DNA of 64,000 nucleotides from Levilinea saccharolytica (GTDB taxonomy: Bacteria; Chloroflexota; Anaerolineae; Anaerolineales; Anaerolineaceae), in NCBI RefSeq assembly GCF_001306035.1, contig NZ_LGCM01000035.1:62001-126000 (forward strand), written 5' to 3'. Each line of letters begins with the position of its first letter. Within the stretch, counting starts at the first letter, position 1. The position numbers and the translations under genes are program-made. Below, piece by piece: positions 37,611 to 51,597 of the stretch. The notes beneath the pieces were generated by a model, which worked only from the letters and a program-made list of their open reading frames with translations, was not told the origin of the DNA and searched no databases.

Positions 37611-38369
37611 ATGAGAAAACCTTTTGTTGCTGGTAACTGGAAGATGAACAAGACCGCGGCCGAAGCCCGCGCCCTGGTGAGCGAGATGCTGCCGGGTCTG
37701 CGCGCGGTGGAAACGGTGGAACGGGTGATTTGCCCGCCCTTCACCGCCCTCAGCACCGTGGCCGAACTTCTGGCGGGCGGGCCGGTGGGCCTGGGCGCGC
37801 AGAATATGCATTGGGAAGCCTCCGGCGCTTTCACCGGTGAGGTGGCCCCCGCGATGGTGAAAGAATTTTGCCAGTACGTTATCCTCGGCCATTCGGAACG
37901 GCGCGCCTACTTTGGCGAGACGGATCAAACCGTCAACCGCCGCCTCAAGGCCGCTCTGGCCGCGGGTCTGACCCCCATTGTGTGCGTGGGCGAGACCCTT
38001 CAGGAAAATGAAAGCGGTCAGACCTATAAAGTTGTTTCCGGGCAGGTGCGCGGCGGGCTGGAAGGCCTGAGCGTGGAAGAAGTCGGCCGCCTGGTCATCG
38101 CCTATGAACCCGTGTGGGCCATCGGCACGGGCCGCGCCGCCAGCGGCAGCGACGCCAACGCCGTGGTGGACGGCATCATCCGCCCCACCCTGCAGGAAGT
38201 CTTCGGCAATGCCGCCGCCGACGCCATGCGCGTGCTCTACGGCGGCTCGGTCACCGGCGCCAACGCCGCCGAGTTCTTCCAGATGCCCGGCATTGACGGC
38301 GCCCTGGTGGGCGGCGCCAGCCTGAAACCCGCCGATTTCGTCAAGATCGTGCAGGCAGCCGCGCAGTGA
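37611..38369 (+). CDS. tpiA: Triosephosphate isomerase
   Basis: A glycolytic enzyme interconverting dihydroxyacetone phosphate and glyceraldehyde 3-phosphate. The 252-residue protein has the catalytic set N9/K11 (GNWKMN), H94 (GHSERR) and E166 (AYEPVWAIGTG), plus the phosphate loop YGGSV and GGASL. ATG 37611 gives the normal start, after AAAGGGAGA. It is downstream of a Ser/Thr kinase instead of in a gap-pgk-tpi cluster, and overlaps the next gene at GTGA. Confidence 0.98.
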   Translation: MRKPFVAGNWKMNKTAAEARALVSEMLPGLRAVETVERVICPPFTALSTVAELLAGGPVGLGAQNMHWEASGAFTGEVAPAMVKEFCQYVILGHSERRAYFGETDQTVNRRLKAALAAGLTPIVCVGETLQENESGQTYKVVSGQVRGGLEGLSVEEVGRLVIAYEPVWAIGTGRAASGSDANAVVDGIIRPTLQEVFGNAAADAMRVLYGGSVTGANAAEFFQMPGIDGALVGGASLKPADFVKIVQAAAQ

Positions 38370-39127
38370 GCCTGGCCACCTGGGACGGCGTGATCTGGCT
38401 TTTGGCCTGTTTCCTGCCCTTCCTGTGGGTTCAGCGCAGACTGCACCGCGAAATTCAATCGTTTTTTCTGCTTCTGACCCGGCGCCCGCAGGTGGCGCTG
38501 GGTCTTTTTTCTTTGCTGTTCTTCCCCGGTGTGCTGCTGCACGAAGGCAGCCACTACCTGACCGCGCGTCTTTTGGGGGTGCGCACCGGCAGCTTTTCCC
38601 TGCTGCCCCAGGCCCTGCCCGACGGGCGGCTGCGCCTGGGCTATGTGGAAACCGCCCAGGCGGATGTGCTGCGCGAGGCTGCCATCGGCACCGCCCCGCT
38701 GATCACCGGTGCCCTGGTCACCGCCTGGTTGGGGTTGGGGCCGCTGGGTCTGGGCGCGCTGCCCCCCCTGGCCTTCGCTGGAGATTGGAGCGGCCTGTGG
38801 TTGGGGCTGAAGGAAATCCCCCACCGCCCCGATTTTTGGCTGTGGTTTTACCTGGCCCTCACCGTCAGCAGCACCATGCTGCCTTCGGCCTCCGACCGGC
38901 GCGCCTGGCTGCCGCTCTTTTTGGGGCTGGGGGCGCTGGTGGGGTTGGCCGTGCTGGCTGGGGCCGGGGAGTGGATGCTGGCGAATCTGGCCCCCCGCCT
39001 GAACCAGGGGCTGCACGCCCTGGCGGGCGTGTTTGGCATCAGCCTGGCCGTCCACGCCGCCCTCATCTTACCGGCGGCCTTGCTGCGCTGGGGGCTCAGC
39101 CGTTTGACCGGGCTGGAAGTGCGCTAA
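38366..39127 (+). CDS. Polytopic membrane protein with HExxH motif, putative metalloprotease
   Basis: A 253-residue protein with about six to seven hydrophobic helices. Helix two ends with LLHEGSHYLTARLLGVRTGSFSL, where HEGSH fits the zinc-binding HExxH of M50 site-2 proteases. The second half lacks an obvious NxxPxxxxDGG motif, so it is either a divergent M50 member or an inactive relative. It starts with GTG overlapping the tpiA stop, so its translation should be coupled to tpiA. The C-terminus has two further TM helices. Confidence 0.6.
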   Translation: MSLATWDGVIWLLACFLPFLWVQRRLHREIQSFFLLLTRRPQVALGLFSLLFFPGVLLHEGSHYLTARLLGVRTGSFSLLPQALPDGRLRLGYVETAQADVLREAAIGTAPLITGALVTAWLGLGPLGLGALPPLAFAGDWSGLWLGLKEIPHRPDFWLWFYLALTVSSTMLPSASDRRAWLPLFLGLGALVGLAVLAGAGEWMLANLAPRLNQGLHALAGVFGISLAVHAALILPAALLRWGLSRLTGLEVR

Positions 39128-39167
39128 GACTTCACAGATTTGTTAAAAAATCAATCCCGCAAAGAGA

Positions 39168-39196
39168 TTGTCATTTTGCGGGGTTCTGCATATAAT
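39168..39196 (+). promoter_or_regulatory. Near-consensus sigma70 promoter of the SET gene
   Basis: TTGTCA (39168-39173), exactly 17 bases, then a perfect TATAAT (39191-39196). It is the best match to the consensus in the window. It gives a leader of about 200 bases before the SET gene. Confidence 0.85.
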
Positions 39197-39331
39197 AGAA
39201 TATCGTTTGGGTTTTGCCCTATAGCGATCTTCTTTGCCCCCGTTCGCGGGTGGGGAGGGTCACTATTTTTTTTGCCTACACATCTCTTTGTGCAAAACCT
39301 CACCTGAACCGTGTTTAACAAAGGAAGATTT

Positions 39332-39391
39332 ATGTCCCCCAAACTGTCGAAAGGCAACGTCCCCACCGGCAAACTATTAGATTTCAGGTAA
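39332..39391 (+). CDS. 19-residue leader peptide ORF upstream of the SET gene
   Basis: An ATG at 39332 follows AAAGGAAGATTT and encodes 19 residues (starting MSPKLSKGNVPTG). Its TAA overlaps the AAAGGAG ribosome binding site of the SET gene, whose ATG is 10 bases on. Both the ribosome binding site and the spacing suggest that it is translated and coupled. Upstream, a small GC hairpin (39237-39253) and a T8 run (39266-39273) may be an attenuator. It is not similar to anything I know. Confidence 0.5.
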   Translation: MSPKLSKGNVPTGKLLDFR

Positions 39392-39401
39392 AGGAGCTCG
39401 A

Positions 39402-39971
39402 ATGCAAAAATTTCCCACCTCTTCCTACACGTCTCCCAAGATGGAGTTACGCTCTTGCCCAAAGAAGGGCAGCTATGGATTGTTCGCCCGAGAGGCGATT
39501 GACGCAGGTGAGATCCTGTGTGTGTGGGGCGGTGAGGTTGTGACCGAAGAAATGCTTGAACACATCCCCGCCGAACGAGCGCAGCATGGTCTGCAAGTAG
39601 AAGATCACATTTACCTGCTTCCATTGGTGGAAGGGGATCCGGCGGATTACGTGAACCATTCCTGTGATCCCAACGCCGGGCTGAGCGGCCAGATCTGCAT
39701 GGTCGCCATGCGGGACATCCGTGAAAACGAAGAAGTTTGCTTCGACTACGCCATGTGCGACAGCACGGATTACGATGAGTTTGTGTGCGGGTGCGGCAGT
39801 GAAAAATGCCGCCACGTCATCACCGGCAACGATTGGAAAATTCCCGAATTACAAGAACGCTATGACGGCTACTTCGTGCCCTATCTGCAGCGCCGCGTGG
39901 ACGCCATGCGCGCCAAGAACAACGGCCACAAGCACAAAGCCGTCGAGATGGAACTTTCCCTGGGCGACTGA
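39402..39971 (+). CDS. SET-domain protein lysine methyltransferase
   Basis: A 189-residue protein, mostly a SET domain. It has SYGLFAREAIDAGEILCVWGGEVV at the start, NHSCDPNAGL (85-94) for SAM and substrate binding, and EEVCFDYAMCD. A post-SET-like cysteine cluster follows (C-x-C-x4-C: VCGCGSEKCRHVITGNDW) that would bind zinc. Bacterial SET proteins methylate lysines in proteins; the target here is unknown. It has a strong upstream promoter, a leader ORF and a strong terminator, so it is a monocistronic, probably highly transcribed gene. Confidence 0.9.
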   Translation: MQKFPTSSYTSPKMELRSCPKKGSYGLFAREAIDAGEILCVWGGEVVTEEMLEHIPAERAQHGLQVEDHIYLLPLVEGDPADYVNHSCDPNAGLSGQICMVAMRDIRENEEVCFDYAMCDSTDYDEFVCGCGSEKCRHVITGNDWKIPELQERYDGYFVPYLQRRVDAMRAKNNGHKHKAVEMELSLGD

Positions 39972-39996
39972 AACACCCAAACCGCAGCATCCATAC

Positions 39997-40034
39997 AAAG
40001 ACGACCCGTTACCGCTGGGTCGTCTTTATTTTTC
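39997..40034 (+). terminator. Terminator after the SET gene
   Basis: An 11-bp stem AAAGACGACCC / GGGTCGTCTTT, then ATTTTTC. It overlaps the stop of the convergent lipB and could act in both directions. Confidence 0.85.
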
Positions 40035-40739
40035 GCTCCCGCTCTCCGCCCACACCGTCGGCAGGTCAAACACGCGGGCAAAGACGCGCGCCAGAGCCTG
40101 CGCCGCCGCCTGGGTGTCCGGCGGGGCGTCCCGCAGCTCCGCCAGGGCCGTCATGCGCACGCCCGCCAGACCGCAGGGCACAATCCCCTGCCAGTAATGC
40201 ATCTCCGGGGCCAGATTGAGGGCCAGGCCGTGGCGGGTGACGCCGTGCGCATCCACCTTGACCCCAATGGAAGCGACCTTGCCCCATTCCTCGCCCTCCA
40301 GCCGCACCCACACCCCCGTCAGCCCCTGGCGCGCCTGCCCCTCCACGCCGTATTCCGCCAGCAGTTGGATAATCACCTGCTCCAGGCGGCGCAGATACCC
40401 GGTGAAATCAGCCTGCGGCAGGCGCTCGCCCACCCAACCCGGCGGGGCCAGACGCAGCAGCGGGTAGGCCACCAGCTGCCCGGGGCCGTGATAGGTGATG
40501 TCGCCGCCGCGGTCCACCCAATGCACGGCAGCCCCCTGCTGACGCAGCTGGTCGGCATCCCACAGCAGATGTTCGGCATGTCCCTGCCGCCCCAGGGTGT
40601 AGGTGTGGGGATGTTCCAGCAGCAGCAAAACCGGCCCGCGCTGCCCCGCCGCGATCTCCGCTGCCAGTTGATTTTGCAGCTCCCAGCCTGCGCCGTACTC
40701 CACACATCCCAACCAGCGGCATTCCAGCGAAGTGTTCAT
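40026..40739 (-). CDS. lipB: Octanoyltransferase LipB
   Basis: It transfers octanoate from acyl carrier protein to lipoate-dependent proteins, the first step of lipoate synthesis. The 237-residue protein has the LipB signature RGGDITYHGPGQLVAYP at 77-93, the Lys-containing KVASIGVKVDAHGVTRHGLALN, and the catalytic Cys in VPCGL near residue 183. ATG 40739 gives the normal start. lipA is not adjacent. Confidence 0.95.
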   Translation of the reverse strand: MNTSLECRWLGCVEYGAGWELQNQLAAEIAAGQRGPVLLLLEHPHTYTLGRQGHAEHLLWDADQLRQQGAAVHWVDRGGDITYHGPGQLVAYPLLRLAPPGWVGERLPQADFTGYLRRLEQVIIQLLAEYGVEGQARQGLTGVWVRLEGEEWGKVASIGVKVDAHGVTRHGLALNLAPEMHYWQGIVPCGLAGVRMTALAELRDAPPDTQAAAQALARVFARVFDLPTVWAESGSEK

Positions 40740-40813
40740 GCGCCGATTGTACCCGAACTGCGCCCGGAAAGCGATTCTTAGAACGGATATACGCAAAGCA
40801 GGTCGTTTCTGTC

Positions 40814-40842
40814 TTGTTTCCTGGGGCACACCCATGTAGAAT
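40814..40842 (+). promoter_or_regulatory. Promoter of the adenosine-specific kinase gene
   Basis: TTGTTT (40814-40819), a 17-base spacer and TAGAAT (40837-40842), 35 bases before the ATG. Confidence 0.5.
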
Positions 40843-40877
40843 ATAGGCAGTAGAAATTCGCTTCACAGGAGATCTGT

Positions 40878-41363
40878 ATGGAACTATCCCTCGTTCCCAT
40901 CGAAAAGCCTGAGGAGATCAATTTCATCCTGGGGCAGTCGCATTTCATCAAGACCGTCGAAGATATCCACGAAGCCCTGGTCAACAGCGTCCCCGGCATC
41001 CGCTTTGGGCTGGCTTTCTGCGAAGCCTCCGGCGCCTGTCTGGTGCGCTGGAGCGGCAACGACCCCGATCTCATCGCCCTGGCACAGAAAAACGCCCTAG
41101 CCGTGGGGGCCGGCCACAGCTTCATCCTCTTTTTGGGATCCGGCTTCTACCCCATCAACGTGCTCAAAGCCGTGCAGAACGTCCCCGAAGTCTGCCGCAT
41201 TTTCTGCGCCACCGCCAACCCCACCCAGGTGATCGTGGCCGAGCAGGACGGCGGCCGCGGCATTTTGGGGGTGATTGACGGCAGCAAACCCCAGGGCATT
41301 GAGCAGCAAGATGGAATCGAATGGCGCAAGGGCTTTTTGCGCATGATCGGCTACAAATTGTAG
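40878..41363 (+). CDS. Adenosine-specific kinase family protein (PF04008)
   Basis: A 161-residue protein that matches the adenosine-specific kinase family across its length: NFILGQSHFIKTVEDIHEALV, GIRFGLAFCEASG, VGAGHSFILFLGSGFYPINVLKAVQNVPEVCRIFCATANPTQVIVAE and GRGILGVIDG. Only a few archaeal and thermophile members have been studied structurally, and the physiological role is uncertain. The ATG follows AGGAG. It has its own promoter and no coupled genes. Confidence 0.9.
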   Translation: MELSLVPIEKPEEINFILGQSHFIKTVEDIHEALVNSVPGIRFGLAFCEASGACLVRWSGNDPDLIALAQKNALAVGAGHSFILFLGSGFYPINVLKAVQNVPEVCRIFCATANPTQVIVAEQDGGRGILGVIDGSKPQGIEQQDGIEWRKGFLRMIGYKL

Positions 41364-41458
41364 GCTCATCCGCGCCCCTGGCACGCCTTTTGCACGCATC
41401 CAGCCTACGCCGGTTGGTTGCGGCGCGCACGGAAACTCACACTTAAGGAGATACGCTT

Positions 41459-42487
41459 ATGAAGAAGATTCTGCCCTTGCTCCTGATGGCAGCCGTGCTG
41501 CTCGCCAGCTGCAGCGGCGGGGCTGGCGGTATGTCTGACAGCGATATGGCCACCCAGGTGGCGGCCATCCTGACCGGCATGCCCAGCAACACCCCTGGCC
41601 CCACCGAGCCGCCCACCGCCACCAGCCAGCCGACCGAACCCAAAGTGATCGAAATCACCCTGGAGCCCACGGCCACCGCGACGGAACAGCCCACGGAGAC
41701 GGTTGAACCCACCGCCACCGAAGAAGCCGCAGCCGAAGTCTCCCCCACCACCGAAGAGAACCAGTCCGGCGGCGGCAGCCCAGATTCCACCGCGGCCCCC
41801 ACCTCGGCCCCCGGCACCCCCGGCAGCCCCACCGCTCCCATCACCCTGACCCCCGGCGGCACGCCCACGGCCACCGTCATCCCCCCGGATGACCCGCGCG
41901 CGCGCCTGGGCAAGCCCACCTCGCAGGACCCCCTGGACGACGCCGACGCCTGGGTGTGGCCCACGGGCGCCAGCGATTACACCGAAGTGGCCTTCAAGAA
42001 CGGCTCCATGTTCCTCAAGGGCCTCACCGAAGATTCCGGCTGGCGGCTGCCGCTGATTGACTCCGTGCCGGATATGTACATCGAGATGACAGCCGCCCCG
42101 CAGAAATGCGACAAGGCCGATAACTACGGCATTATCTTCCGCGTGCCCAACCTGCGCGACCCCCAACGCGGCTATCTCTTTGCCGTTTCCTGCGAGGGCA
42201 AGTTCGCCGTGTGGAAATGGGACGGCGAGGCCAAGCCCAAGGGCAAAGCCACCATGCTGATCTATTGGAAGGCCGACAAGGCCATCAACGCTGGGGCCGA
42301 CCAGGTGAACCGCCTGGGCGTCATGGCCACCGGCAATCAGTTTGACCTGTACGTCAACGGCGTCAAGGTCGGCAGTGTCAGCGACACGTCCTACACCAAA
42401 GGCTCCTTCGGCGTCTTCGTCAACCCTGCCGCCGACACCGAATTCACCGTGCGCATTGACGAAATGACCGTCTGGCATCTGCCTTAA
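41459..42487 (+). CDS. Lipoprotein with a concanavalin-like (DUF1080/LamG-type) domain
   Basis: A 342-residue lipoprotein. It has lipobox LLASC, a low-complexity Thr/Pro/Glu linker from about residue 40 to 145, and a C-terminal beta-sandwich at about 155-342. Patterns such as DNYGIIFRVPN, GYLFAVSCEGKFAVWKWDG, NRLGVMATGNQFDLYVNGVKVGSVSD and GSFGVFVNPAADTEFTVRIDEMTVW are like DUF1080/LamG carbohydrate-binding domains. It probably sits on the outer face of the membrane. A ribosome binding site AAGGAG precedes ATG 41459. Confidence 0.78.
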   Translation: MKKILPLLLMAAVLLASCSGGAGGMSDSDMATQVAAILTGMPSNTPGPTEPPTATSQPTEPKVIEITLEPTATATEQPTETVEPTATEEAAAEVSPTTEENQSGGGSPDSTAAPTSAPGTPGSPTAPITLTPGGTPTATVIPPDDPRARLGKPTSQDPLDDADAWVWPTGASDYTEVAFKNGSMFLKGLTEDSGWRLPLIDSVPDMYIEMTAAPQKCDKADNYGIIFRVPNLRDPQRGYLFAVSCEGKFAVWKWDGEAKPKGKATMLIYWKADKAINAGADQVNRLGVMATGNQFDLYVNGVKVGSVSDTSYTKGSFGVFVNPAADTEFTVRIDEMTVWHLP

Positions 42488-42510
42488 GTCACCTTCGCTT
42501 TGAGGAAAAC

Positions 42511-42550
42511 AAATCCCCGGTGACCGCTGCGGCGGGCCGGGGATTTTTTA
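42511..42550. terminator. Bidirectional terminator between convergent genes
   Basis: A 10-bp stem AAATCCCCGG / CCGGGGATTT with a 16-base loop and T-rich ends on both strands. It serves the lipoprotein gene and the minus-strand coiled-coil operon. Confidence 0.85.
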
Positions 42551-42568
42551 TGTGCATTCTGCGCCGCG

Positions 42569-43375
42569 CTATTGCAGGGCGGCCTCCAGCTCCAGCAGCC
42601 AACGGTCCAAAATCTCCAAATCCGTGGCGGCGGTGGCCGGGTCGCGGGGCAGCTCACTGCGGGCCAGATCCAAGCGGCTGGCAATCCGCTCGGCGTCCGC
42701 CGGGCTAAGCGCCTGCAAACTGGGCAGGCTTTCGTTCAGCTGCGCCTGGGCGTCCTCCAGAGATTTATGCGCCATCTGTCCATCGCGGCGTTCCAGGGCC
42801 ATGCGCGCCGTGGTCACCGCATAGAGCACTTTGAGCACCTGCGCGCGCGTCTGTCCGCGGGCGGCCAGGCTCTGCGCCTGGTCTCGATCGGCGCGGGCCG
42901 CGGTCAACTGGGTTTCCAGGCTGGCGGCCTGTTCCTGAGCCTGACTGAGCTGCGCCTGGGTGTCGGTCAACTGCGCCTGGGTGCGCTCCAGGCTCTGCTG
43001 GCTGGGCCGCCACAGCAGCAGCACGGCCGCCAGGAATCCCAAAGCCAACAGGCCCACCGTCACCCCGGCGATGCGCACCGCGGCGCGCATGCCGCGCCCC
43101 AGGCGGGTTTCCGGGTTGAACAAAAAGCCCATCACGCGCCGAAAGAGCGGCGGTTTGGGCGGCTCGGTGGGAGTTCCCCCTTCGGCTTCCCCCAATACGG
43201 GGGCTTCCTCCGCTGCCGGGCTTTCGCTCGTTTCGGGCTGGATGGGGGCTTCACCCTCCGCTGCGGCATCCGCAGGGGCCTCCCCCGTTTCAGGCTGCAC
43301 CGGAAGTTCACCTTCCGGGGTCTGTTCCGTTTTTTCAGTTGTTTCTTCTGGTTTTGGCTCCAAAGTTTCGGTCAT
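42569..43375 (-). CDS. Membrane coiled-coil protein C (unknown function)
   Basis: A 268-residue protein. An acidic Pro/Glu-rich cytoplasmic start has an internal repeat (PVQPETGEAPA, PIQPETSESPA). A TM helix at about 101-122 is followed by a Gln/Ala-rich coiled coil at 124-172 and a helical C-terminal domain. That last part contains LPRDPATAATDLE (242-254), which matches LPQDPWLAAQDLE in the upstream gene product. I take the two as paralogues. Third gene of the trio, 9 bases after the second. Confidence 0.65.
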   Translation of the reverse strand: MTETLEPKPEETTEKTEQTPEGELPVQPETGEAPADAAAEGEAPIQPETSESPAAEEAPVLGEAEGGTPTEPPKPPLFRRVMGFLFNPETRLGRGMRAAVRIAGVTVGLLALGFLAAVLLLWRPSQQSLERTQAQLTDTQAQLSQAQEQAASLETQLTAARADRDQAQSLAARGQTRAQVLKVLYAVTTARMALERRDGQMAHKSLEDAQAQLNESLPSLQALSPADAERIASRLDLARSELPRDPATAATDLEILDRWLLELEAALQ

Positions 43376-43384
43376 TCGGCCCTC

Positions 43385-44317
43385 CTAGGGGATAGGGGTT
43401 GGGGTGATCACCGCGGTGGCGGTCCAGGTGGGAATCAGGGTGACGGTCGCGGAAAACTGCGCCGGATCAGGCGTCAGGGTTGGCCAGGGGGTCGCGGAAA
43501 GCAAGCCTGGGTCGGGGGTCACGGTTGGCCAGGGGGTGGCGGTGGCGCCGCGCCCGGCGGCCTCTGGCTGCATGGCATCCCACCCAGCGGACATCAGATT
43601 CCAGACGGCTTCCAGGTCTTGTGCAGCCAGCCAGGGGTCTTGGGGCAGGGCACGGATGACCCCATCCAGCCGTTCCAGCCACACCCGCAGCAGGGCCGCG
43701 CGCGGCTCTGGCAGAGTGAGCGGGTCCACCCCGGCCAAAAGGTCGCGTGCGGCGCGGGCTTCGCTTTGGGCCAGCCCATAATTGGCCTGCGCCGTCCAGC
43801 GCCGTGCCAGATCCACGCGCAGCAAAGCGGTTTGCCAGATGCGCTGCAATTGCAGTTCGTCCAGGGCGGCCTGCCCCACCTGTGAGGTCAAGATCAGCGA
43901 CCCAATCTGCGTGCTTTGATAGGGAACCACGGTCTCCAGCCAGAGATTGGCCTGAGCAGTGCCCTGCAAGGCTGCCGCCTGGGTGTGAACGCGCTCCAGC
44001 TCCTGCGCCTGTCCCTGGCGGGCAGCCTCGGCCGCCTGCAGGGTGGATTCCACCGCCTGAAGCTGTGCGCGCAGCGTGGCCGCCTGGGCCTGGTCGCCGG
44101 CCTGGCGGGTGGCAAGCTGATCCATGCGGGTTTGGGCGGTCACCGCGGCCCGGTTCACCTCGCGGGTCAATTTCTCCGCCCCCAGATAGATGGCGGTGAC
44201 GATTCCGGCGGTCACCACCAAAATCAGCAGCAGGCGTCCCAACGCGCGTAGAAAGGCCAACAGCGCCCTGCCCAAAGGGGAGCCGCCCGCCGGGGGTGTG
44301 GAAGTTTCCATGCTCAT
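43385..44317 (-). CDS. Membrane coiled-coil protein B (unknown function)
   Basis: A 310-residue protein with a TM helix at about 27-46 and an extracytoplasmic coiled coil at 48-120. A helical domain runs to about 245 with the shared LPQDPWLAAQDLE motif (224-236). The C-terminal tail is a tandem repeat (ATPWPTVTPDPGLLS, ATPWPTLTPDPAQFS). ATG 44317 follows GGGAGG; a Met 4 codons upstream overlaps the stop of gene A. No family is recognised. Confidence 0.65.
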   Translation of the reverse strand: MSMETSTPPAGGSPLGRALLAFLRALGRLLLILVVTAGIVTAIYLGAEKLTREVNRAAVTAQTRMDQLATRQAGDQAQAATLRAQLQAVESTLQAAEAARQGQAQELERVHTQAAALQGTAQANLWLETVVPYQSTQIGSLILTSQVGQAALDELQLQRIWQTALLRVDLARRWTAQANYGLAQSEARAARDLLAGVDPLTLPEPRAALLRVWLERLDGVIRALPQDPWLAAQDLEAVWNLMSAGWDAMQPEAAGRGATATPWPTVTPDPGLLSATPWPTLTPDPAQFSATVTLIPTWTATAVITPTPIP

Positions 44318-44328
44318 AGGGCCTCCCA

Positions 44329-45297
44329 TCAAGGCAGGGCCGGCAGTTCGCTGAGGACACGCTGCAAACCTTCCAGGAAACGCTGGAAGGTCTCTGTGCG
44401 CGCTTCGGCCCGCGCCACCCGATCGCTCATCAAATCCGTTTCCTGGCGCAAAGCCGCCAGGTCTGCTTGGGCGCGTTCCAGGCTTTGGCGAGCTTCATCC
44501 AGGCTCTGTTCCACAGCAGAAACACGCCCGCCCAGGGCCTCCACCCGTTCCAGCCGGGCGCGCTGGGTTTCCAGCTCGCTTTGGGCAAAACCCAGGCGCA
44601 GATCCAAATCTTCCACCTGAGCCTGGGTCTGGCTGAAGCGCCCCTGAGTCACAAAAGACAGGCCGCCGCTGGTGAGGGCCAGCAAGCCCAGGATCAGCAG
44701 AATTCCCAAAAGCATCCCCGCCAGGCTGAAGCCCGCCGCGGTGAGATACAGCTCTCTGCGCGTCACCGGCCGCGGGGCAGCGGCCGCGGGCTTTTGCGGC
44801 TCCGGCGGGTTGGCTGCCGGGGCAGGTTCTTCCACCGGCAAAGGCGGCAGCGGCTCGGCGGCCAGGGCTGGGGCGCCCTCCGGCGCTTTCACGGGCGCGG
44901 CAAGCTCCTCGGCGGGGAGTAAAAGCGCTTCACTGGGTGCAGGGGCCTCTTCGACAAGGGCAGCCGCGGGCAATTCAACCGGTGCAGGGGTTTCGTCTGT
45001 TGAAGCCGCGGGCATTTCCGCCAGGGCCGGGGCGTCCTCGTCTGGGGACGCGGAGGGTTCGGCCAGCACAGCCTCCAACGCCGCTGCGGGCGTCAACGGC
45101 GACACGGTCAACTGATTGCGCAGTTCCGCCACCTTCACAGCGTTCAGCCCCGAAACGCGGGCCAAATCTTCCAGCGCGGCGAAAGGCCGCTCCGCCAGAA
45201 TCCGCTGCGCCAGCACTTTGCCAATCCCGCGCACGCTGCGCAGTTCGCTTTCCGTGGCCGTGTTCACATCCACCAAATTGGGGGTCAAGTCACTCAT
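44329..45297 (-). CDS. Membrane coiled-coil protein A with N-terminal helix-hairpin-helix domain
   Basis: A 322-residue protein. Residues 10-62 form a ComEA-like helix-hairpin-helix (VDVNTATESELRSVRGIGKVLAQRILAERPF, DLARVSGL), a non-specific DNA-binding fold. A long acidic Pro/Ala linker to about 180 is followed by a TM helix at 185-210 and a coiled coil at 222-305. With the N-terminus inside, the HhH would be cytoplasmic, unlike ComEA, where it is outside. Starts at ATG 45297 after AAGGGA. First of the three-gene set. Confidence 0.7.
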   Translation of the reverse strand: MSDLTPNLVDVNTATESELRSVRGIGKVLAQRILAERPFAALEDLARVSGLNAVKVAELRNQLTVSPLTPAAALEAVLAEPSASPDEDAPALAEMPAASTDETPAPVELPAAALVEEAPAPSEALLLPAEELAAPVKAPEGAPALAAEPLPPLPVEEPAPAANPPEPQKPAAAAPRPVTRRELYLTAAGFSLAGMLLGILLILGLLALTSGGLSFVTQGRFSQTQAQVEDLDLRLGFAQSELETQRARLERVEALGGRVSAVEQSLDEARQSLERAQADLAALRQETDLMSDRVARAEARTETFQRFLEGLQRVLSELPALP

Positions 45298-45331
45298 GGC
45301 ATTCCCTTTCACAAAAATCCCAAACCGCCGT

Positions 45332-46180
45332 TCACTTCTTGCGCTCACCCGCCCCCGGAGCCGCCGGGCGGGTGGGGTAAGGCATGGGGATATACTCCAC
45401 CGAAGGCCGCCGTGCCGCCGCCTGGGGGAAGAGGTTCATCAGGCGGTAGACTTCCGCGGGCATCTCGGTGGAAATATTCAGCCCCAAAGAGCGCGCTTCT
45501 TCCACACTGATGGGGTAATCGTGGGTCCAGCGCCCCGAAACCAGGGCTTCCTTCAGCTTTTCCACCGCCTCCGGGGTGTAATGACAGCAGGCAATCCGCC
45601 CCACCGTGGCTTCCACCTGACGCACAGCCTTTTGGGCCACTTCCGCCAGGATCAAAGTCTCATCCTTCACGCGGTTCACATCCTTTTGGGCCACCGCCGC
45701 CAGGATGGACACCGCCGGATACTGGCCAATTTGCGGATCTACCGGCCCCAAGACGGCATTTTCATCCATGATGATCTCATCTGCCGCCATCGCCAGAAGC
45801 GTGCCGCCCGACATGGCGTAATGGGGCACCATCACCGTCACGCGCGCCGGGTGGCGCGCCAGGGCGTTGGCCACCTGCTCCGCCGCCAAAACCAGCCCGC
45901 CGGGGGTGTGCAAAATGAGATCAATGGGCACATCATCATCCGTGAGCTTGATGGCCCGCAAAATGGCCTCAGAATCCTGAATGTCAATGTAGCGCGCCAT
46001 GGGAAAGCCCAAAAAGGACAGGCTTTCCTGGCGGTGGATCAGGGCAATGACGCGCGAACCGCGCTTCTCTTCCAGGCTGCGCATCAGCCGCAGACGGCTG
46101 GCGTCTAACATACGCTGCCGGATCACCGGCGTGACCGCGGCGATGACCAGAAAGATCCAAAACAGGTTGAGCAGATCCAT
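45332..46180 (-). CDS. SDH-family Clp-fold membrane serine protease
   Basis: A 282-residue protein of the SDH_protease (PF01972) group, relatives of ClpP/SppA. An N-terminal TM helix (LLNLFWIFLVIAAVTPVI) is followed by the protease fold. Likely catalytic parts are S124 in YAMSGGT, D148 in LGPVDPQIG, and H91 in LILHTPGG. The predicted topology puts the catalytic domain in the cytoplasm or at the membrane surface. The gene is 20 bases behind the rhomboid gene and 34 bases ahead of the HhH gene on the minus strand. Confidence 0.85.
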   Translation of the reverse strand: MDLLNLFWIFLVIAAVTPVIRQRMLDASRLRLMRSLEEKRGSRVIALIHRQESLSFLGFPMARYIDIQDSEAILRAIKLTDDDVPIDLILHTPGGLVLAAEQVANALARHPARVTVMVPHYAMSGGTLLAMAADEIIMDENAVLGPVDPQIGQYPAVSILAAVAQKDVNRVKDETLILAEVAQKAVRQVEATVGRIACCHYTPEAVEKLKEALVSGRWTHDYPISVEEARSLGLNISTEMPAEVYRLMNLFPQAAARRPSVEYIPMPYPTRPAAPGAGERKK

Positions 46181-46200
46181 ACACGCTCCTTATCCAGGCT

Positions 46201-46899
46201 TTACCAGGGGTAATACTCATCCGCATAGCTGCGCGGGGCGCGCCGCCGCGGAGAAAGGATCATCGCCAGCAGCAGCCCAAAGACAAAGCCGCCGATATGC
46301 GCCCACCAGGCCACCCCGCCCATCGCCATGCCCCCCGCCGCGTTGAGCGAAAGAAAACCGGAATATAACTGCGACACGAACCAGACCCCCAAAAAGATCA
46401 CCGCGGGAATTTCGACAAACCAGGGGATGATAAACACCGGGATCAGGGTGATGACCCGCGCCTGCGGGAAAAAATAAAAATACGCACCCATCACCGCGGC
46501 GATCGCCCCGCTGGCGCCGATGGCCGGGATGGTGCTGCCCAGGTTGACCACCGTCTGCAGCCCGCCTGCCGCCACACCCCCCAGCAGATAAAACAGCAAA
46601 TAACGCCCCGACCCCAGGCGGTCTTCCACGTTATCACCGAAGATAAATAAGATCCACACGTTGCTGAGGAAATGGAACCAGCCGCCGTGCAGGAACATAT
46701 GGCTTAAAAAGGGCAGCCAGGTGAGGGGATTGAGCAGGTCAATTTGCGCAGGGATCAGCCCAAAGCGGGCAATCAGCCCCTCCAGGCGCGGGGCGCTCAG
46801 GCTGATTTCAAAGAAAAACACCAGAGCGTTGGCCGCAATCAGCAGCCAGTTGACGATGGGAAACGTGCGAGAATGGATGGTATCGCGCAGCGGCAGCAT
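46201..46899 (-). CDS. Rhomboid intramembrane serine protease
   Basis: A 232-residue rhomboid with six TM helices. The catalytic Ser130 is in IGASGAI and His201 in WWAHIGGFVFG. The oxyanion Asn80 is in HFLSNVWILFIFGDNVEDRLG, and the L1 loop region (FLSHMFLHGGWFH) is complete. It cleaves TM segments of substrates inside the bilayer. It leads a possible operon with the SDH protease, so two membrane proteases are encoded together. The single-TM coiled-coil proteins downstream are plausible substrates (inference). Confidence 0.93.
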   Translation of the reverse strand: MLPLRDTIHSRTFPIVNWLLIAANALVFFFEISLSAPRLEGLIARFGLIPAQIDLLNPLTWLPFLSHMFLHGGWFHFLSNVWILFIFGDNVEDRLGSGRYLLFYLLGGVAAGGLQTVVNLGSTIPAIGASGAIAAVMGAYFYFFPQARVITLIPVFIIPWFVEIPAVIFLGVWFVSQLYSGFLSLNAAGGMAMGGVAWWAHIGGFVFGLLLAMILSPRRRAPRSYADEYYPW

Positions 46900-47037
46900 A
46901 ACACTCCTCGCCAGGCGGCAAGCTCCGCGGCAGTCCCAGCCAACGCTGGCCGGTGAAGGTCGAAAGGCTTGCCAGGTGTGCTTTTAGTATATCCCGCTTG
47001 GCGCGAAACCGCAAACACGCCCGTCCGCTGGGACGGG

Positions 47038-47066
47038 AAAAAAAGCTTCTCCCCTGAGGGAGAAGC
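47038..47066 (-). terminator. Terminator after the copper-type gene pair
   Basis: A 9-bp stem GCTTCTCCC / GGGAGAAGC with a 4-base loop, followed on the minus strand by TTTTTTT. It is just past the HMA gene. Confidence 0.88.
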
Positions 47067-47073
47067 GTAGGTT

Positions 47074-47289
47074 TTATTCGATCAACTGAATGGGATACCC
47101 CATTTTTGCCGCCGCCGCCGTGATCGCCTCCAGCGGCAGGCGCGCCTCATCAAAGGTCACCTCCATCTGCTGGCGGTGATAGCTGGCCTCCACCCGTTCC
47201 ACCCCTTCCAGCTCATCCTCCAGCCCCTCCAGGCGCATCACGCAGGCAGCGCAGTGCATATCGGCAACCTGAAAACGAACCGTGCGCAT
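47074..47289 (-). CDS. Heavy-metal-associated (HMA) domain protein, CopZ-like
   Basis: A 71-residue single HMA domain with the metal motif MHCAAC (C13, C16) and the usual beta-alpha-beta-beta-alpha-beta pattern. It probably carries copper(I) in the cytoplasm. It starts 9 bases after the stop of the TauE/cupredoxin gene and ends in a terminator. No copper ATPase is in the window. Confidence 0.92.
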   Translation of the reverse strand: MRTVRFQVADMHCAACVMRLEGLEDELEGVERVEASYHRQQMEVTFDEARLPLEAITAAAAKMGYPIQLIE

Positions 47290-47298
47290 GCGCCCTCC

Positions 47299-48336
47299 CT
47301 ATTGAAAGCGGATCTGGCCGCCGTACATGCCCATCGAACAGGTGAAAGGCATCACCGTTCCGGCGGTCTGCGGCGGAATCTGGATAATTTCGGTTCCGGT
47401 GGCGGGCAGCAGTTTTTCCACCTTCAGCGCCGGGATGACAAAGGCCCGCGAGCAGGAGCGGGTGTTGTTGGTGACCACATGCAGCTCCAGCGGCTGCCCG
47501 GCTTTGGCCATCAGCACCTCCGGCGCGTAGCCGTCGTTGAGGGCTTCCAAAACCAGGGGGGCGTTCTCATCCGCGAGGGCCGCCGCCGCTGTTGGAGCGG
47601 CGCTGTTGGCCTGCCACAGGCGGCTGACGGCGAAGGGCGCGCCTGCCAGGTTGAGGCCCGCGTCCACCGTCACCAGACCCAAAATCAGAGTGACCGCGGC
47701 CACAAAGATGCGGAAATTCTTTTCCAGGCGTGCGCCCAGCTGGGTGGTTAAGAAGGCCACGGCGAAGAACACCGGGCTGGTGCCCAGGGTGAAGGCGAAG
47801 AGGATGGCCGCACCCGCCCAGGGGCTGCCCGCCCCCACCGCCAGAGCCATCATGGTCTGCGTCACGCCGCAGGGGATGAACACGGTCAGCGCGCCCAAGA
47901 ACACAGGGGCCAGCAGTCCCTCACTGCTGCTGCGCGCTTTGCGGCGGATGTAGCGCGTCAGGAATTTGGGCGGCTCCAGGTTGAAAAAGCGAAAGATGGG
48001 GTGCACGTTCAGCAGGCGCAGGGCGTTGCCGATCATAAACACGCCCACCGCCAGCATCAAGACCGCGCGGGTCAGGGGGGTCATTTGAAACACGGAGCCT
48101 AAGGCCCCCAACAGAAACCCCAGCAGCGTGTAGGCCGCCAGCTTGGCCAACAAGAAACCCGCGATGGGCGCGGCCAGCTGCGCCGAGCGGCGCGGGGAGG
48201 CGGCCACGTCGCGCTCCACCTGATGCGAAAGGGAACTGGCCAGCAGCCCGCCCTGCACCGCCAGGCAGCTCAGTCCGCCGGTGGTCAGCCCGGTGATAAA
48301 CAGCACCAACAAATTAGCAAAAGAAAGGGATTCCAT
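47299..48336 (-). CDS. TauE/SafE-type membrane protein fused to a cupredoxin domain
   Basis: A 345-residue protein. Residues 1-230 form a six-to-seven-helix TauE/SafE or DsbD-like region, with CLAVQGGLLAS in helix 1 and FIPCGVTQTMMALAVGAGSPWAGAAILFAFTLGTSP in the core. Residues 255-345 form a cupredoxin domain (NNTRSCSRAFVIP, MPFTCSMGMYGGQI), whose Cys/Met residues suggest a copper site. Its partner HMA gene supports copper export or delivery. The upstream AT-rich gap holds a partial dyad (ATGCGAC/GTCATAT) that may be an operator. Confidence 0.82.
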   Translation of the reverse strand: MESLSFANLLVLFITGLTTGGLSCLAVQGGLLASSLSHQVERDVAASPRRSAQLAAPIAGFLLAKLAAYTLLGFLLGALGSVFQMTPLTRAVLMLAVGVFMIGNALRLLNVHPIFRFFNLEPPKFLTRYIRRKARSSSEGLLAPVFLGALTVFIPCGVTQTMMALAVGAGSPWAGAAILFAFTLGTSPVFFAVAFLTTQLGARLEKNFRIFVAAVTLILGLVTVDAGLNLAGAPFAVSRLWQANSAAPTAAAALADENAPLVLEALNDGYAPEVLMAKAGQPLELHVVTNNTRSCSRAFVIPALKVEKLLPATGTEIIQIPPQTAGTVMPFTCSMGMYGGQIRFQ

Positions 48337-48431
48337 AGTTACCTGTAAAGTGATCGATATGACTTATTTTGTCGCATTTATCCTGCAAAAAAATTGTATC
48401 ATATTTTCCCCCCAAACCTACCCCCCCATTT

Positions 48432-48926
48432 TCACCAGGGCCGGTCTGGGCTGGCCCATTCCGGCAGGGAACGCACCGCCCGATCCACAATCTGGTCGCC
48501 GCGGTAAGCGAAGTAATATTCCCGCGGGCGCGCCCCGCCCAACACCGCCGGGGCCACATGGTGCAGATTCGACACCACCGCCGGGGCCGTCCACACCCAA
48601 CGGCGCGGCACCCACGCCAACCGTCCCTCGCTGCAGGCGCGAAACGGGCCGTCGGGGGCCTGCGCGGTGAACAGGTACAAACCGCCGTCCGAAATCTCAA
48701 AGCCGCTCCAGGTCAGCACCCCCGCAAAGCGCACCGTGCCCAGTTGGTAACCGGCCTCCTCCTGCACCTCACGCAGGCAGGCCGCCCGCGGCGTCTCCCC
48801 TGGCTCAATGTGCCCGCCGATCCCGTTCCACAAGCCGCGGTTGGGCGGGTTGGAGCGCAGCAGCATGAGCACATGCCGGTCGCGCTGCAAAAAACACAGC
48901 ACAAAACGGGCCAGGGTAGGGCTCAT
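48432..48926 (-). CDS. Nudix hydrolase
   Basis: A 164-residue Nudix protein. The Nudix box is GHIEPGETPRAACLREVQEEAG, matching GX5EX7REUXEEXGU. The N-terminal VLCFLQRDRHVLMLLRSNPPNRGLWNGIGG resembles 8-oxo-dGTP diphosphatases (MutT-like), so house-cleaning of nucleotides is likely. It overlaps the M42 gene by 4 bases (ATGA) and is last of the purD operon. Confidence 0.9.
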   Translation of the reverse strand: MSPTLARFVLCFLQRDRHVLMLLRSNPPNRGLWNGIGGHIEPGETPRAACLREVQEEAGYQLGTVRFAGVLTWSGFEISDGGLYLFTAQAPDGPFRACSEGRLAWVPRRWVWTAPAVVSNLHHVAPAVLGGARPREYYFAYRGDQIVDRAVRSLPEWASPDRPW

Positions 48927-49975
48927 GCGCCCTCTGCCTGCGCCAAAAAGGCCGCCAGCAGATTCACCATCCCGGCCACGTCCTCCAAATCGGCCTGTTC
49001 CACCGGTGCGTGGTGGTAGCGCACCGGCAGCGAAAGGGCCGCCGCGCGCACGCCTGCTCCCGAGTACACCATCGGCGTCAGCGCCGTGCTGATGCCGCTG
49101 ACCACCTCATCCTGTAGGGCTAGCTTTTCCTGTGCCGCCAGCGCCCGCAGCCGCCGCGTCAGGGCCAGATCGGGCACAAAGGCCGCCAGCTTGCCGCGGA
49201 TGGCATCCATCCACTTCAGCGCCGGGCCGCTGCCCAACCGGATGCCCCCGCTCGATTCCTGAAAATCGGGGGTATCGGAGGCCAGGGTGCCGTCCACGCC
49301 GATGAGCAGCTCCGGCTGCCAGGCCGCCATCAACGGCACGCCCCCCGCCAGCATGGTCTCTTCCTGCACAGTGAAAGCCAGCAGCACCTGGGCCGGGGTG
49401 GGCGGCAGGTGGTGGGCCAGGGTCAGCAGGGCAAAACAGCCCAGACGGTCGTCCAGCGCCTTGGCCTGCACGCGTGTGCCGCCCAAAGCCTGCAAGGGTC
49501 CGTCCCAGGTCAGCCCATCCCCCACCTGCACCCCCCACTGCGCCGCCTCTTGGGCCGAGCGCGCGCCGATATCGATAAACAGCTCTTCCAACGGCAGCGG
49601 CTTGCCGCCGTCCAGATGGGCCGGGGGCAGCCCCACCGCCGCCGCCAACTGCCCCGTTTCCGTCCACAGGGTCAGGCGGCTGCCGGGCAAGGCCCGCGCG
49701 CTGGTGCCCCCCAGGCGCTCCACACGCAGAAAGCCGTCCGCGCTGATGCTGCGCACGATCAGCCCGACCTCATCCATATGCGCCGCCAGCATCACCCGCG
49801 GCCCAGCACCGGGGCGCAGCGCCGTCAGGTTGCCCAGCGCGTCCGTGTGCGTCTGCCAGTCCGGCGGTAAAAGCCTGCGCAGGCAGTCTGCCACCGGCTG
49901 TTCACGCCCCGGCAGCCCCGGGGCGGCGGTCAGCTCGGCCAGCCAGGCGCGCTGCAGATCCTGCGCGCTGATCAT
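48923..49975 (-). CDS. M42-family metallo-aminopeptidase
   Basis: A 350-residue dinuclear-metal peptidase of M42 (glutamyl aminopeptidase/FrvX-like). Metal ligands are in AAHMDEVG, KALDDRLGC, QEET with the general base Glu, GVDGT and the final RYHHAPVE. It has the SGxxxGxGPALKWMD segment. It degrades peptides in the cytoplasm and forms large tetrahedral assemblies in known members. It overlaps purD and the Nudix gene at both ends by 4 bases. Confidence 0.93.
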   Translation of the reverse strand: MISAQDLQRAWLAELTAAPGLPGREQPVADCLRRLLPPDWQTHTDALGNLTALRPGAGPRVMLAAHMDEVGLIVRSISADGFLRVERLGGTSARALPGSRLTLWTETGQLAAAVGLPPAHLDGGKPLPLEELFIDIGARSAQEAAQWGVQVGDGLTWDGPLQALGGTRVQAKALDDRLGCFALLTLAHHLPPTPAQVLLAFTVQEETMLAGGVPLMAAWQPELLIGVDGTLASDTPDFQESSGGIRLGSGPALKWMDAIRGKLAAFVPDLALTRRLRALAAQEKLALQDEVVSGISTALTPMVYSGAGVRAAALSLPVRYHHAPVEQADLEDVAGMVNLLAAFLAQAEGA

Positions 49976-51297
49976 AGCACCGGCCTGAGGGCGCGCATAC
50001 GCGCGGTTTTGGTTTCCAGGGTGGCATAGGCGCCGATGTCGCGGCGGTGGCGCAGTTCGGGGGGTTCCATCTCGCTCAGCAGCGCTTCCAGTTTTTCACA
50101 CAGCGCCCCCGGGTGTTCGCCCAGCCCCACCAGCGCCAAAGCCCGCGAGCCCAGCGCCTTCCAGCGCCCCTCTTCCAGCGCGGCGGAGGAAACGATCAGC
50201 TCAAAACCGGCCTGGCGGGCGCGGGCCGCGTCAAAATCAAAGTACACATCCCCCGGCAGCGGGCCGGGGTAGGCCTGGGGCACCAGATATTTCACCAGCG
50301 AGGCCTGCGGGGCAAAACGCACCTGCCCAACCTGCAAACTGCCCGCCGCCAGAGCTGAGAACAGCTCCACGCCGTCCGATTCAAGCAGCGCGCACAGGTT
50401 GATCGCCTCCGGGTCGCCGAAGCGGGTGTTGTACTCGATCAGGCGCACTCCGCGGGCCGTGACCATGAACTGGCCGTAGAGCATCCCGCGGTAGGGCTGG
50501 CCGGTCTCTTCCGCCAGGGCCGCCAGGGTTTCCACCATCAGGCGGTCAGCCTCGGCCAATTCTTCGGGCAGCAGGAAAGGCATGCCGCCGTCGGCCAGGG
50601 TATACGCCCCCATCCCGCCGGTCATCAGCCCCTGGTCGCCTTCATACGCATACTTAAAGTCCTGGGCCACGGGCATGGGGAAAACCCCGCTGTCAGTGGC
50701 AAAAGCCATGCGCGAAAACTCCTCGCCCACCAGGCGCTCTTCCAACAGTACGCTGCCGTCTTTTTGGATCCAGGTGTCCGCATAGGCGGCCGCTTCCTGA
50801 GCATCGCGCAAATGCACGCCCATCACCTGCACCCCTTTGCCGCCCGTCAGACCCAAAGGCTTCACGGCCGCTTCGCCCACCACATCCAAAAAACTCAGCA
50901 CCTCGGCCCGACTGCGGGCCAGGCACCACTGCGGCGCGCCCCACCCCACCCGCCGCTGCAGCAGGTCGCGCATGAAGAACTTATCGCCTTCCAGGCGCGC
51001 CTGAGACTGCGTCGGCCCCACAGTGGGGATGCCCGCAGCGCGCAGCGCATCCACCGCGCCCGCGTTCAGCGGCGCTTCTGGGCCCACCACCACCAGGTCC
51101 ACGTGCGCGGCACGCATGGCCCGCGCCACAGCCTGGGCGTCGTTTAAACTGCCCTTGATCCATTCCCCCGCCAAAGGACGGATTCCGGGGTTGGGGGTGT
51201 TGGAATACACCACCAGCCGTTCTGGGTGGGGGCTGTGTGCCAGAACCCGTGCCAGAGCATGTTCCCGTCCGCCGCTTCCGATTAATCCAATTCGCAT
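49972..51297 (-). CDS. purD: Phosphoribosylamine-glycine ligase
   Basis: The ATP-grasp enzyme that makes GAR in purine synthesis. The 441-residue protein shows the N-terminal MRIGLIGSGGREHAL, VVGPEAPLNAGAVDAL, EGDKFFMRDLL, AVKPLGLTGGKGVQV, LLEERLVGEEFS, MTGGMGAYTLA, and EYNTRFGDPEA metal site. ATG 51297 follows GGAGGG; 51 extra codons upstream are spurious. No other pur genes are close; it heads a three-gene operon with the M42 peptidase and Nudix genes. Confidence 0.95.
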   Translation of the reverse strand: MRIGLIGSGGREHALARVLAHSPHPERLVVYSNTPNPGIRPLAGEWIKGSLNDAQAVARAMRAAHVDLVVVGPEAPLNAGAVDALRAAGIPTVGPTQSQARLEGDKFFMRDLLQRRVGWGAPQWCLARSRAEVLSFLDVVGEAAVKPLGLTGGKGVQVMGVHLRDAQEAAAYADTWIQKDGSVLLEERLVGEEFSRMAFATDSGVFPMPVAQDFKYAYEGDQGLMTGGMGAYTLADGGMPFLLPEELAEADRLMVETLAALAEETGQPYRGMLYGQFMVTARGVRLIEYNTRFGDPEAINLCALLESDGVELFSALAAGSLQVGQVRFAPQASLVKYLVPQAYPGPLPGDVYFDFDAARARQAGFELIVSSAALEEGRWKALGSRALALVGLGEHPGALCEKLEALLSEMEPPELRHRRDIGAYATLETKTARMRALRPVL

Positions 51298-51491
51298 GGC
51301 CGATCCCTCCGCAGGAGAAAATGTACTGCTTACGCACCGTTGTACCATAGATTCGGGGGTCTGAAAAGTCAGAGGCTGACCAGGGTTTGCGTTCGCCGCG
51401 CAGACGCAGTCAGGCGGCCACCTCTCGGCATTCAGGGGTGAAAGCCTCAAAGTTTTTGTATAAGAAATGTATAAATTCGCCCTTTTTCATC

Positions 51492-51520
51492 TTGTATTTC
51501 TACTCCGCATCCGCTATTAT
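51492..51520 (+). promoter_or_regulatory. Candidate promoter of the site-2 protease gene
   Basis: TTGTAT (51492-51497), a 17-base spacer and TATTAT (51515-51520), in the 300-base gap before ATG 51598. The rest of the gap is AT-rich and shows nothing else I can support. Confidence 0.5.
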
Positions 51521-51597
51521 TATGAAAATTAAGATAAATATTCACCTGGCTTATCGGTTGAAAACTTTGGGTTCAGTACCTCGAAAGGAGGCAGGAA

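Follow-up and report, generated by a model that had tools for sequence, protein, structure and literature searches.

The subject of this report is a set of three adjacent genes, encoding proteins that we call A, B and C, in a 64,000-nucleotide stretch of the Levilinea saccharolytica genome (hereafter the window: forward-strand positions 62,001 to 126,000 of contig NZ_LGCM01000035.1). All three are predicted to be membrane proteins with an N-terminus inside the cell and a coiled coil outside, and A carries in addition a helix-hairpin-helix (HhH) domain. A and B probably form one structure, and the explanation that we prefer, still tentatively, is that A and B, together with C where it is present, may act as a transmembrane scaffold or tether. 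What the sequences themselves show is the conservation of the genes, the charge pattern around the transmembrane (TM) helices, the paralogy of B and C, the heptad phasing of the A stalk, the matched lengths of the A and B stalks outside the host's order, and the exchange of the inner module. As judged from the sequences, what is new is a conserved set with no family for B and C, and a domain order in A that reverses that of ComEA; the set is not ComEA, SMC or PsbU.

The order cytoplasmic segment, TM helix and external coiled coil had been proposed for all three proteins in the preliminary description. An excess of lysine plus arginine on the N-terminal side of the TM helix was found in 29/46 A proteins (5 opposite, 12 ties), in 49/54 B proteins (5 ties) and in 37/40 C proteins (3 ties), proteins containing X or matched at E above 1e-20 being left out of these topology counts. 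This N-inside signal agrees with the proposed order in all three. B departs more often from a ‘single TM’: by a crude count based on hydropathy, 45/46 A and 40/40 C proteins have one TM helix, compared with 43/54 B proteins. The TM helix of B spans about residues 26–44, and that of a close relative of C of equal length (L091) residues 102–120 by hydropathy. In relatives of A, an N-G-G/T-L motif stands at the outer end of the TM helix, with the N present in 44/47. The HhH of A is predicted to lie inside the cell because of the same charge signal, which also appears in fusions of an HhH to B, where the HhH side of the TM helix is the richer in lysine and arginine in 8/8 cases. The earlier placement of the HhH and of a flexible linker of some 120 residues on the inner side thus stands, and the opposite orientation, with the HhH outside, does not fit the charges: an HHH_3 domain occupies residues 8–64, and an arm of about 120 Pro/Ala/Glu-rich residues follows it up to the TM helix.

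The AlphaFold model of C (m16775aff325b, 9 sequences) predicts one helix over residues 91–195, followed by helices 199–223, 225–241 and 246–267. Confidence is high in the stalk and tip, where ten-residue blocks from residue 101 on average a predicted local distance difference test (pLDDT) score of 88–98, and below 50 in the first 70 residues. Fold searches with the C tip returned many unrelated bundles, with Z scores from 14.5 down to 12, and Foldseek gave no match at E <= 0.001; the matches are generic four-helix bundles only, such as LytS-N, FliS, PsbQ-type and designed proteins. The search was run with the C model only, and folds absent from the list stay possible. A suspected resemblance of the tip to HemX was supported by no search and was dropped. 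A Thr/Pro-rich tail ends B in most of 27 aligned sequences, and such tails also occur on A in several relatives.

B and C are paralogues. The 13-residue segments LPQDPWLAAQDLE of B and LPRDPATAATDLE of C are identical at 9 of 13 positions, as noted before, and alignment of the two family profiles with hhalign extends the relationship to 170 columns (probability 99.0, E 7.9e-18). Alignment of the A and B profiles is limited to 34 TM columns, so it is not established that A shares an ancestor with B and C. No Pfam or NCBIfam name scores above cut-off for B or C, and A exceeds cut-offs for HhH profiles only (PF12836, HHH_3: 49.9 bits, cut-off 27); the earlier statement that no family name fits all three holds for these two libraries, and B and C fit no known family in the libraries searched for them. 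Several candidate identities were rejected: SMC and RecN are matched by A and C in coiled-coil stretches only, far below cut-offs and without the ATPase head domains; PsbU (PF06514) reaches 18.5 bits against a gathering threshold of 24.5; and as a defence system PADLOC gives only weak matches to coiled-coil regions of A and C. Among 11 pattern matches to B in IMG/VR there was no viral relative (A and C were not sought there), and a literature search covering open-licence papers found no publication on this gene set.

Conservation was examined in three samples of genomes. Among 101 genomes, counting that of the window, single-sequence searches detected B in 33 and C in 47; for A the number was 75, which takes in ComEA-type HhH proteins. 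Profile searches at E <= 1e-10 gave 37/101 genomes for B and 62/101 for C; these numbers become 36 and 60 if the B match in G065 is taken for a cross-hit on C, and the C matches in G071 and G084 for cross-hits on B. Of 249 genomes drawn evenly from the class Anaerolineae, at least 32 have B at E <= 1e-14, a lower bound, since G247, which holds an A-B pair, was missed by the B profile and found with the C profile; the lower-scoring matches (111/249 at E <= 1e-3) are mostly coiled-coil noise. Among 251 genomes drawn from the phylum the B profile matched 14, of which 13 belong to the class; the remaining match (G497) is coiled-coil only and was rejected, so that this profile gave no accepted B outside Anaerolineae in that draw. 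Outside the order the C profile gives partial matches, and those compared lie on B genes. From this distribution, A-B is the wider core, a class-level feature of Anaerolineae, and C seems to have been added within the order or close to it.

In the fetched loci, A is the gene immediately preceding B, with the same orientation, in 42/43 of those with both (gap <= 400 bp; 406 bp in the 43rd), and C directly after B in 23/23 loci (gap <= 900 bp). Twenty of the 32 class-draw genomes with B were fetched. Outside the order (17 loci) A adjoins B in 15, being broken by N in one of them, and B stands alone in two, once at a contig end; the three loci within the order have an HhH-bearing B and no A. The gene trio is thus conserved, as the preliminary description had required, but strict A-B-C is only one of several arrangements, beside A-B, HhH-B fusions, A alone, C alone and protease-C. 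Duplicate loci (L141, L147 and L184, of G001, G021 and G013) were dropped before counting, and so were the tandem-HhH proteins of family f15 described at the end; exceptions are given with the counts concerned.

An indirect indication that A and B belong together physically comes from their stalks, whose length was taken as the distance between the residue at the TM end and a conserved one close to the opposite end. In A, 42/46 proteins share one heptad phase (7/11 distinct lengths, simulated p 0.0018), the pattern that a coiled coil should give. The lengths of the A and B stalks are correlated (Spearman 0.73, n = 43, including L227, whose A is broken by N, at length 0), and remain so in phylogenetic contrasts, which used a tree built from the A and B proteins and left out L227 (r 0.75, permutation p 0.0002, n = 42). 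Control contrasts gave r 0.27 (p 0.08) with the length of the B tail and r 0.28 (p 0.07) with the cytoplasmic length of A. Outside the order the contrasts give r 0.73 (p 0.004, rank correlation 0.84, n = 14), and those of the full set, after removal of the four longest A stalks, r 0.55 (p 0.001, rank 0.43). Because the two stalk lengths evolve together, a signal driven by genomes outside the order, A and B probably form one structure. For these contrasts L145 and L151 were counted as within the order, L151 being labelled Anaerolineae only.

On the cytoplasmic side, the module carried by A is exchanged between loci. Among 47 A loci, 40 have an HHH_3 domain, three an HhH of the HHH_5 type (by Pfam in L237 and L239; L240 is HHH_5-like by sequence and missed by a strict pattern) and four no HhH (L110, L114, L236 and L238). 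The arm behind HHH_3 is acidic (median 101 residues, net charge −19). The most basic 25-residue stretch carries +7 in L110, +1 in L114, +3 in L236 and +9 in L238, compared with −6 to +4 in 39 HHH_3 arms, so among the proteins lacking an HhH only the arms of L110 and L238 stand out as basic. In 8/54 B loci the HhH is carried by B itself, and those loci contain no A. Since the HhH is exchanged, or moved to B, across loci, these arrangements suggest that the inner binding module matters. In the family with the other HhH type, a TPR protein is encoded directly upstream of A (L237:6724-7851, L239:6990-8150 and L240:612-1844; assigned by Pfam in the first two and from the start of the sequence in L240).

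In the mechanism that we propose, A and B would assemble side by side into one membrane-crossing rod, and C would be a B-like rod joining or paralleling A-B. Outside the cell, the coiled coils would end in helical tips (B and C) and in Thr/Pro-rich tails (most B, some relatives' A), and tips and tails might dock in the cell wall or a surface layer. Inside, A would offer a small HhH on a long, acidic, flexible arm reaching for a cytoplasmic partner, and the whole would work as a transmembrane tether or scaffold. As a kind, that is, a bitopic coiled-coil protein with a cytoplasmic binding domain, analogues exist. Here, a conserved and unnamed membrane system of Anaerolineae comes with a clear part list and a measurable prediction, namely that A and B are paired rods, and the central question is the ligand of the inner HhH, for which a protein is favoured with modest confidence, DNA being a possible one at less than an even prospect. 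With DNA as the ligand, A would be a rare case of a bacterial protein made for fastening the nucleoid to the envelope; with a protein, the set would be an envelope scaffold, placed beside two membrane proteases in one order.

Several results weigh against this explanation. Heptad phasing is not significant for B (9/29 distinct lengths, p 0.11) or C (3/7, p 0.43). Before tree correction the A stalk also correlates with the cytoplasmic length of A itself (Spearman 0.52, p 0.0005), so part of the raw A-B signal is lineage. Within the order, where A is almost invariant, the A-B contrasts give only r 0.17 (p 0.30, n = 28), and without two genomes of family f22 r is 0.69 and the rank correlation falls from 0.67 to 0.37. 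No matching is seen for the pair A-C (r −0.02, n = 25), and none clearly for the pair B-C (r 0.28, p 0.20, n = 23). The parts are not obligate partners, with C in 60 and B in 36 of the 101 genomes, and L114 has lost the HhH without a visible substitute. In the model of B (5 sequences; 309 residues, the initiator Met left off), the order of elements resembles that of C at low confidence (mean pLDDT 63).

The genes of the set and their upstream neighbours are collected in Table 1. They follow one another on the minus strand in the order rhomboid, SDH-type protease (SDH), A, B, C, with short gaps or overlaps; the ATG of B, at 44317, is preceded by GGGAGG. All three open reading frames were recovered where they had first been placed, but the unit is larger than a three-gene set, the two upstream protease genes having been missed. 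The SDH protein clears its family cut-offs (NF047768, 416.6 bits, cut-off 250; PF01972, 383.5 bits, cut-off 31.3), and the rhomboid matches its profile and has the GxSG serine, as GASG. The assembly measures 4.23 Mb, Levilinea belongs in the NCBI taxonomy to Anaerolineaceae, Anaerolineales, Anaerolineae, Chloroflexota, and the same set is present in the genome of a genus-mate (G001).

Table 1. Positions in the window of the A-B-C genes, their predicted domains and the upstream protease genes
Feature	Positions	Strand	Remarks
Protein A	44329-45297	minus	322 aa, ATG at 45297; predicted cytoplasmic HhH, acidic Pro-rich linker, one TM, external coiled coil
HHH_3 of A, residues 8-64	45106-45276	minus	Pfam PF12836, E 3.6e-13
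Predicted TM helix of A, about residues 190-208	44674-44730	minus	From hydropathy and alignments; followed by TSGGL
Predicted coiled-coil stalk of A, residues 210-307	44377-44670	minus	Length changes in relatives mostly heptads
Protein B	43385-44317	minus	310 aa; predicted short N-in segment, TM, coiled coil, helical tip, Thr/Pro-rich tail
Predicted helical tip domain of B	43580-43852	minus	Homologous to C tip; low-confidence model
LPQDPWLAAQDLE, in B tip domain	43610-43648	minus	
Protein C	42569-43375	minus	268 aa; predicted acidic N-in segment, TM, coiled coil, four-helix tip
Predicted helical-bundle tip of C, about residues 176-267	42575-42850	minus	Model block pLDDT 94-98
LPRDPATAATDLE, in C tip	42614-42652	minus	
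SDH-type ClpP-like serine protease	45332-46180	minus	Directly upstream of A; PF01972 E 6.5e-115, NF047768
Rhomboid intramembrane protease, GASG motif	46201-46899	minus	Directly upstream of SDH; PF01694 E 1.4e-33

The neighbours suggest a first alternative, which we regard as unlikely: the trio would serve membrane proteases and wall synthesis as an adaptor or scaffold, holding together a quality-control patch of the envelope in which rhomboid and SDH are joined by an HtrA-like protease and the MurJ flippase. MurJ is encoded in 16/40 loci with C, in 0/36 loci that lack C and have A or B (a number that takes in L126, L130 and L138 of f15) and in 0/72 of the listed SDH loci without the set, and an HtrA-type lipoprotein accompanies DnaJ in 13 distinct loci. 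By function these neighbours are genes of the envelope and of protein quality control. Yet 15 of the 16 MurJ loci belong to the same family as the window and the remaining one (L142) is labelled Anaerolineaceae, so these cases reflect a shared gene order and are not independent. Moreover, no match to MurJ, HtrA or DnaJ was found in positions 38001–52000 of the window or in the genus-mate locus, and A-B outside the order has other neighbours. In five loci where C occurs without A, B or the proteases (L106, L134, L135, L139 and L140), MurJ lies within about 3 kb.

An envelope sensor with regulated proteolysis, in which the tips would sense, and rhomboid and SDH would cut A within or close to its membrane segment and free the HhH arm as a regulator, is unlikely. 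It draws on the 18 fetched loci, those of the window and the genus-mate included, in which rhomboid and SDH precede A-B-C, with the rhomboid GASG intact in 18/18 and the SDH MSGG in 17/18; on the conserved, helix-breaking motif at the outer end of the A TM helix; and on the generic match of the C tip to the LytS-N sensor domain. Against it, neither protease was found near A-B in the 20 fetched class-draw loci or in L262. Conversely, among the matches listed for SDH (80 loci), four have A-B-C (L141, L145, L151 and L184), four have C only (L142, L146, L147 and L163), and 72 have none of A, B and C at E < 1e-10 (L171 has a weak C match, 6e-6); rhomboid and SDH are both present in 38 of these 72, so the protease pair is wider than the set. 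In addition, N-in proteins are not the usual substrates of rhomboids. Across several phyla, rhomboid stands directly before SDH on the same strand in 54/65 loci with both, a count from which duplicates were not removed and which may contain all three of those named above.

Unlikely in its strict form, though it overlaps with the scaffold or tether that we prefer, is a nucleoid-envelope anchor in which the HhH of A would bind chromosomal DNA and the stalk would pin that DNA to the envelope. Two HhH types occupying the same place speak for it, as do the two of four HhH-less A proteins whose arms are more basic than any HHH_3 arm, and RecN adjoins A-B, directly upstream, in two genomes of one family (L125:4624-8402, L129:1682-5269). 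The net charge of the HhH is not below that of ComEA domains from relatives' genomes (median −1, n = 50, with the duplicates L141 and L184 included, compared with −3.5, n = 20), and lysine or arginine is enriched at the positions of Bacillus subtilis ComEA 167 (39/48 compared with 3/20) and 197 (27/48 compared with 5/20). Conversely, the K164 position of that protein holds a lysine or arginine in 1/48 A/B-type HhH domains, compared with 17/20 ComEA domains from relatives' genomes, the K199 position is basic in 20/48 compared with 14/20, the G-h-G hairpin is intact in 31/48 compared with 18/20 ComEA domains, and PsbU, a small secreted subunit whose HhH has a short loop similar to that of A, binds protein. 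The near loss of the K164 lysine counts further against the anchor: as given in excerpts of one study, the equivalent K166A variant of Geobacillus stearothermophilus ComEA showed no DNA binding in electrophoretic mobility-shift assays, and loss of this lysine cuts transformation of B. subtilis about 200-fold (PMC9747964). An HhH can also serve both kinds of ligand, ComE1 being described, in excerpts of another, as binding fibronectin and DNA (PMC2601033). The idea of the preliminary description, a membrane tether linking DNA to an external scaffold, is compatible with DNA as far as charge goes; the link is not supported as stated, the key ComEA lysine being replaced in 47/48. A bolder form of the tether, which must be called improbable, would see in the set a class-wide bacterial counterpart of inner-nuclear-membrane tethers: a dedicated two-rod complex whose interchangeable module (an HhH of either type, or a basic arm), borne on a long flexible linker, would hold the nucleoid while the outer end is fixed in the envelope, with release, in one order, by the rhomboid and SDH of the operon.

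Identity with a DNA-uptake protein of the ComEA kind has next to no probability, even though comE of NCBIfam (TIGR01259) is the top name for A (31.7 bits, far below the cut-off of 152.35) and both have an HHH_3 domain and one TM helix: in Gram-positive ComEA the TM helix comes first and the HhH last, outside (PMC9747964, in part), whereas A is predicted to have the HhH first and inside and a coiled coil outside, it lacks the key lysine, and the genome encodes a separate ComEA-like protein (L241, 195 aa, C-terminal HhH at 128–191). ComEA identity was rejected on domain order, topology and key residue.

Other known proteins share single features with A. The best sequence match of its HhH in the PDB is that of EEPD1 (9yi2, whole-sequence E 6.4e-13), an endonuclease/exonuclease/phosphatase-type protein with no shared stalk. 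The ComEA-related structure 2duy has the same short R-P-F/Y loop and a leucine at the K164 position, but is a 75-residue chain without the TM-stalk part; this part is likewise missing from PsbU, which gives weak sequence matches to the A HhH. Regulators of the ToxR/TcpP type combine an N-in domain of DNA-binding type, one TM helix, an external domain and a co-encoded membrane partner, a layout that A is predicted to share; theirs is a winged helix, and they lack a long coiled-coil stalk. A has no winged-helix Pfam match, and an HhH in that place. A candidate functional analogue is Rv3852, according to excerpts of one study a mycobacterial nucleoid-associated protein with one TM anchor, linked to wall synthesis (PMC8233713). 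Its TM helix is C-terminal, which sets it apart from A. To our knowledge it has no external stalk or HhH.

A scan for RNA elements at gathering threshold found one tRNA in the window and none at the locus. A lipoprotein with a Laminin_G_3-like domain is encoded at 41459–42487 of the window, convergent to C; homologues lie near the set in L091, L102, L110 and L140, and in L229 one is the gene next upstream of A. In a different family of the order (f15), adjacent genes encode tandem-HhH proteins (two or more HhH, up to about four by eye) with one TM helix, some with a large outer part (L126:3629-6561, L130:4260-6425 and L138:3054-6835), another design with a cytoplasmic HhH, a TM helix and an outer domain; one of them, L138:5183-6835, matches the domain of the window lipoprotein.

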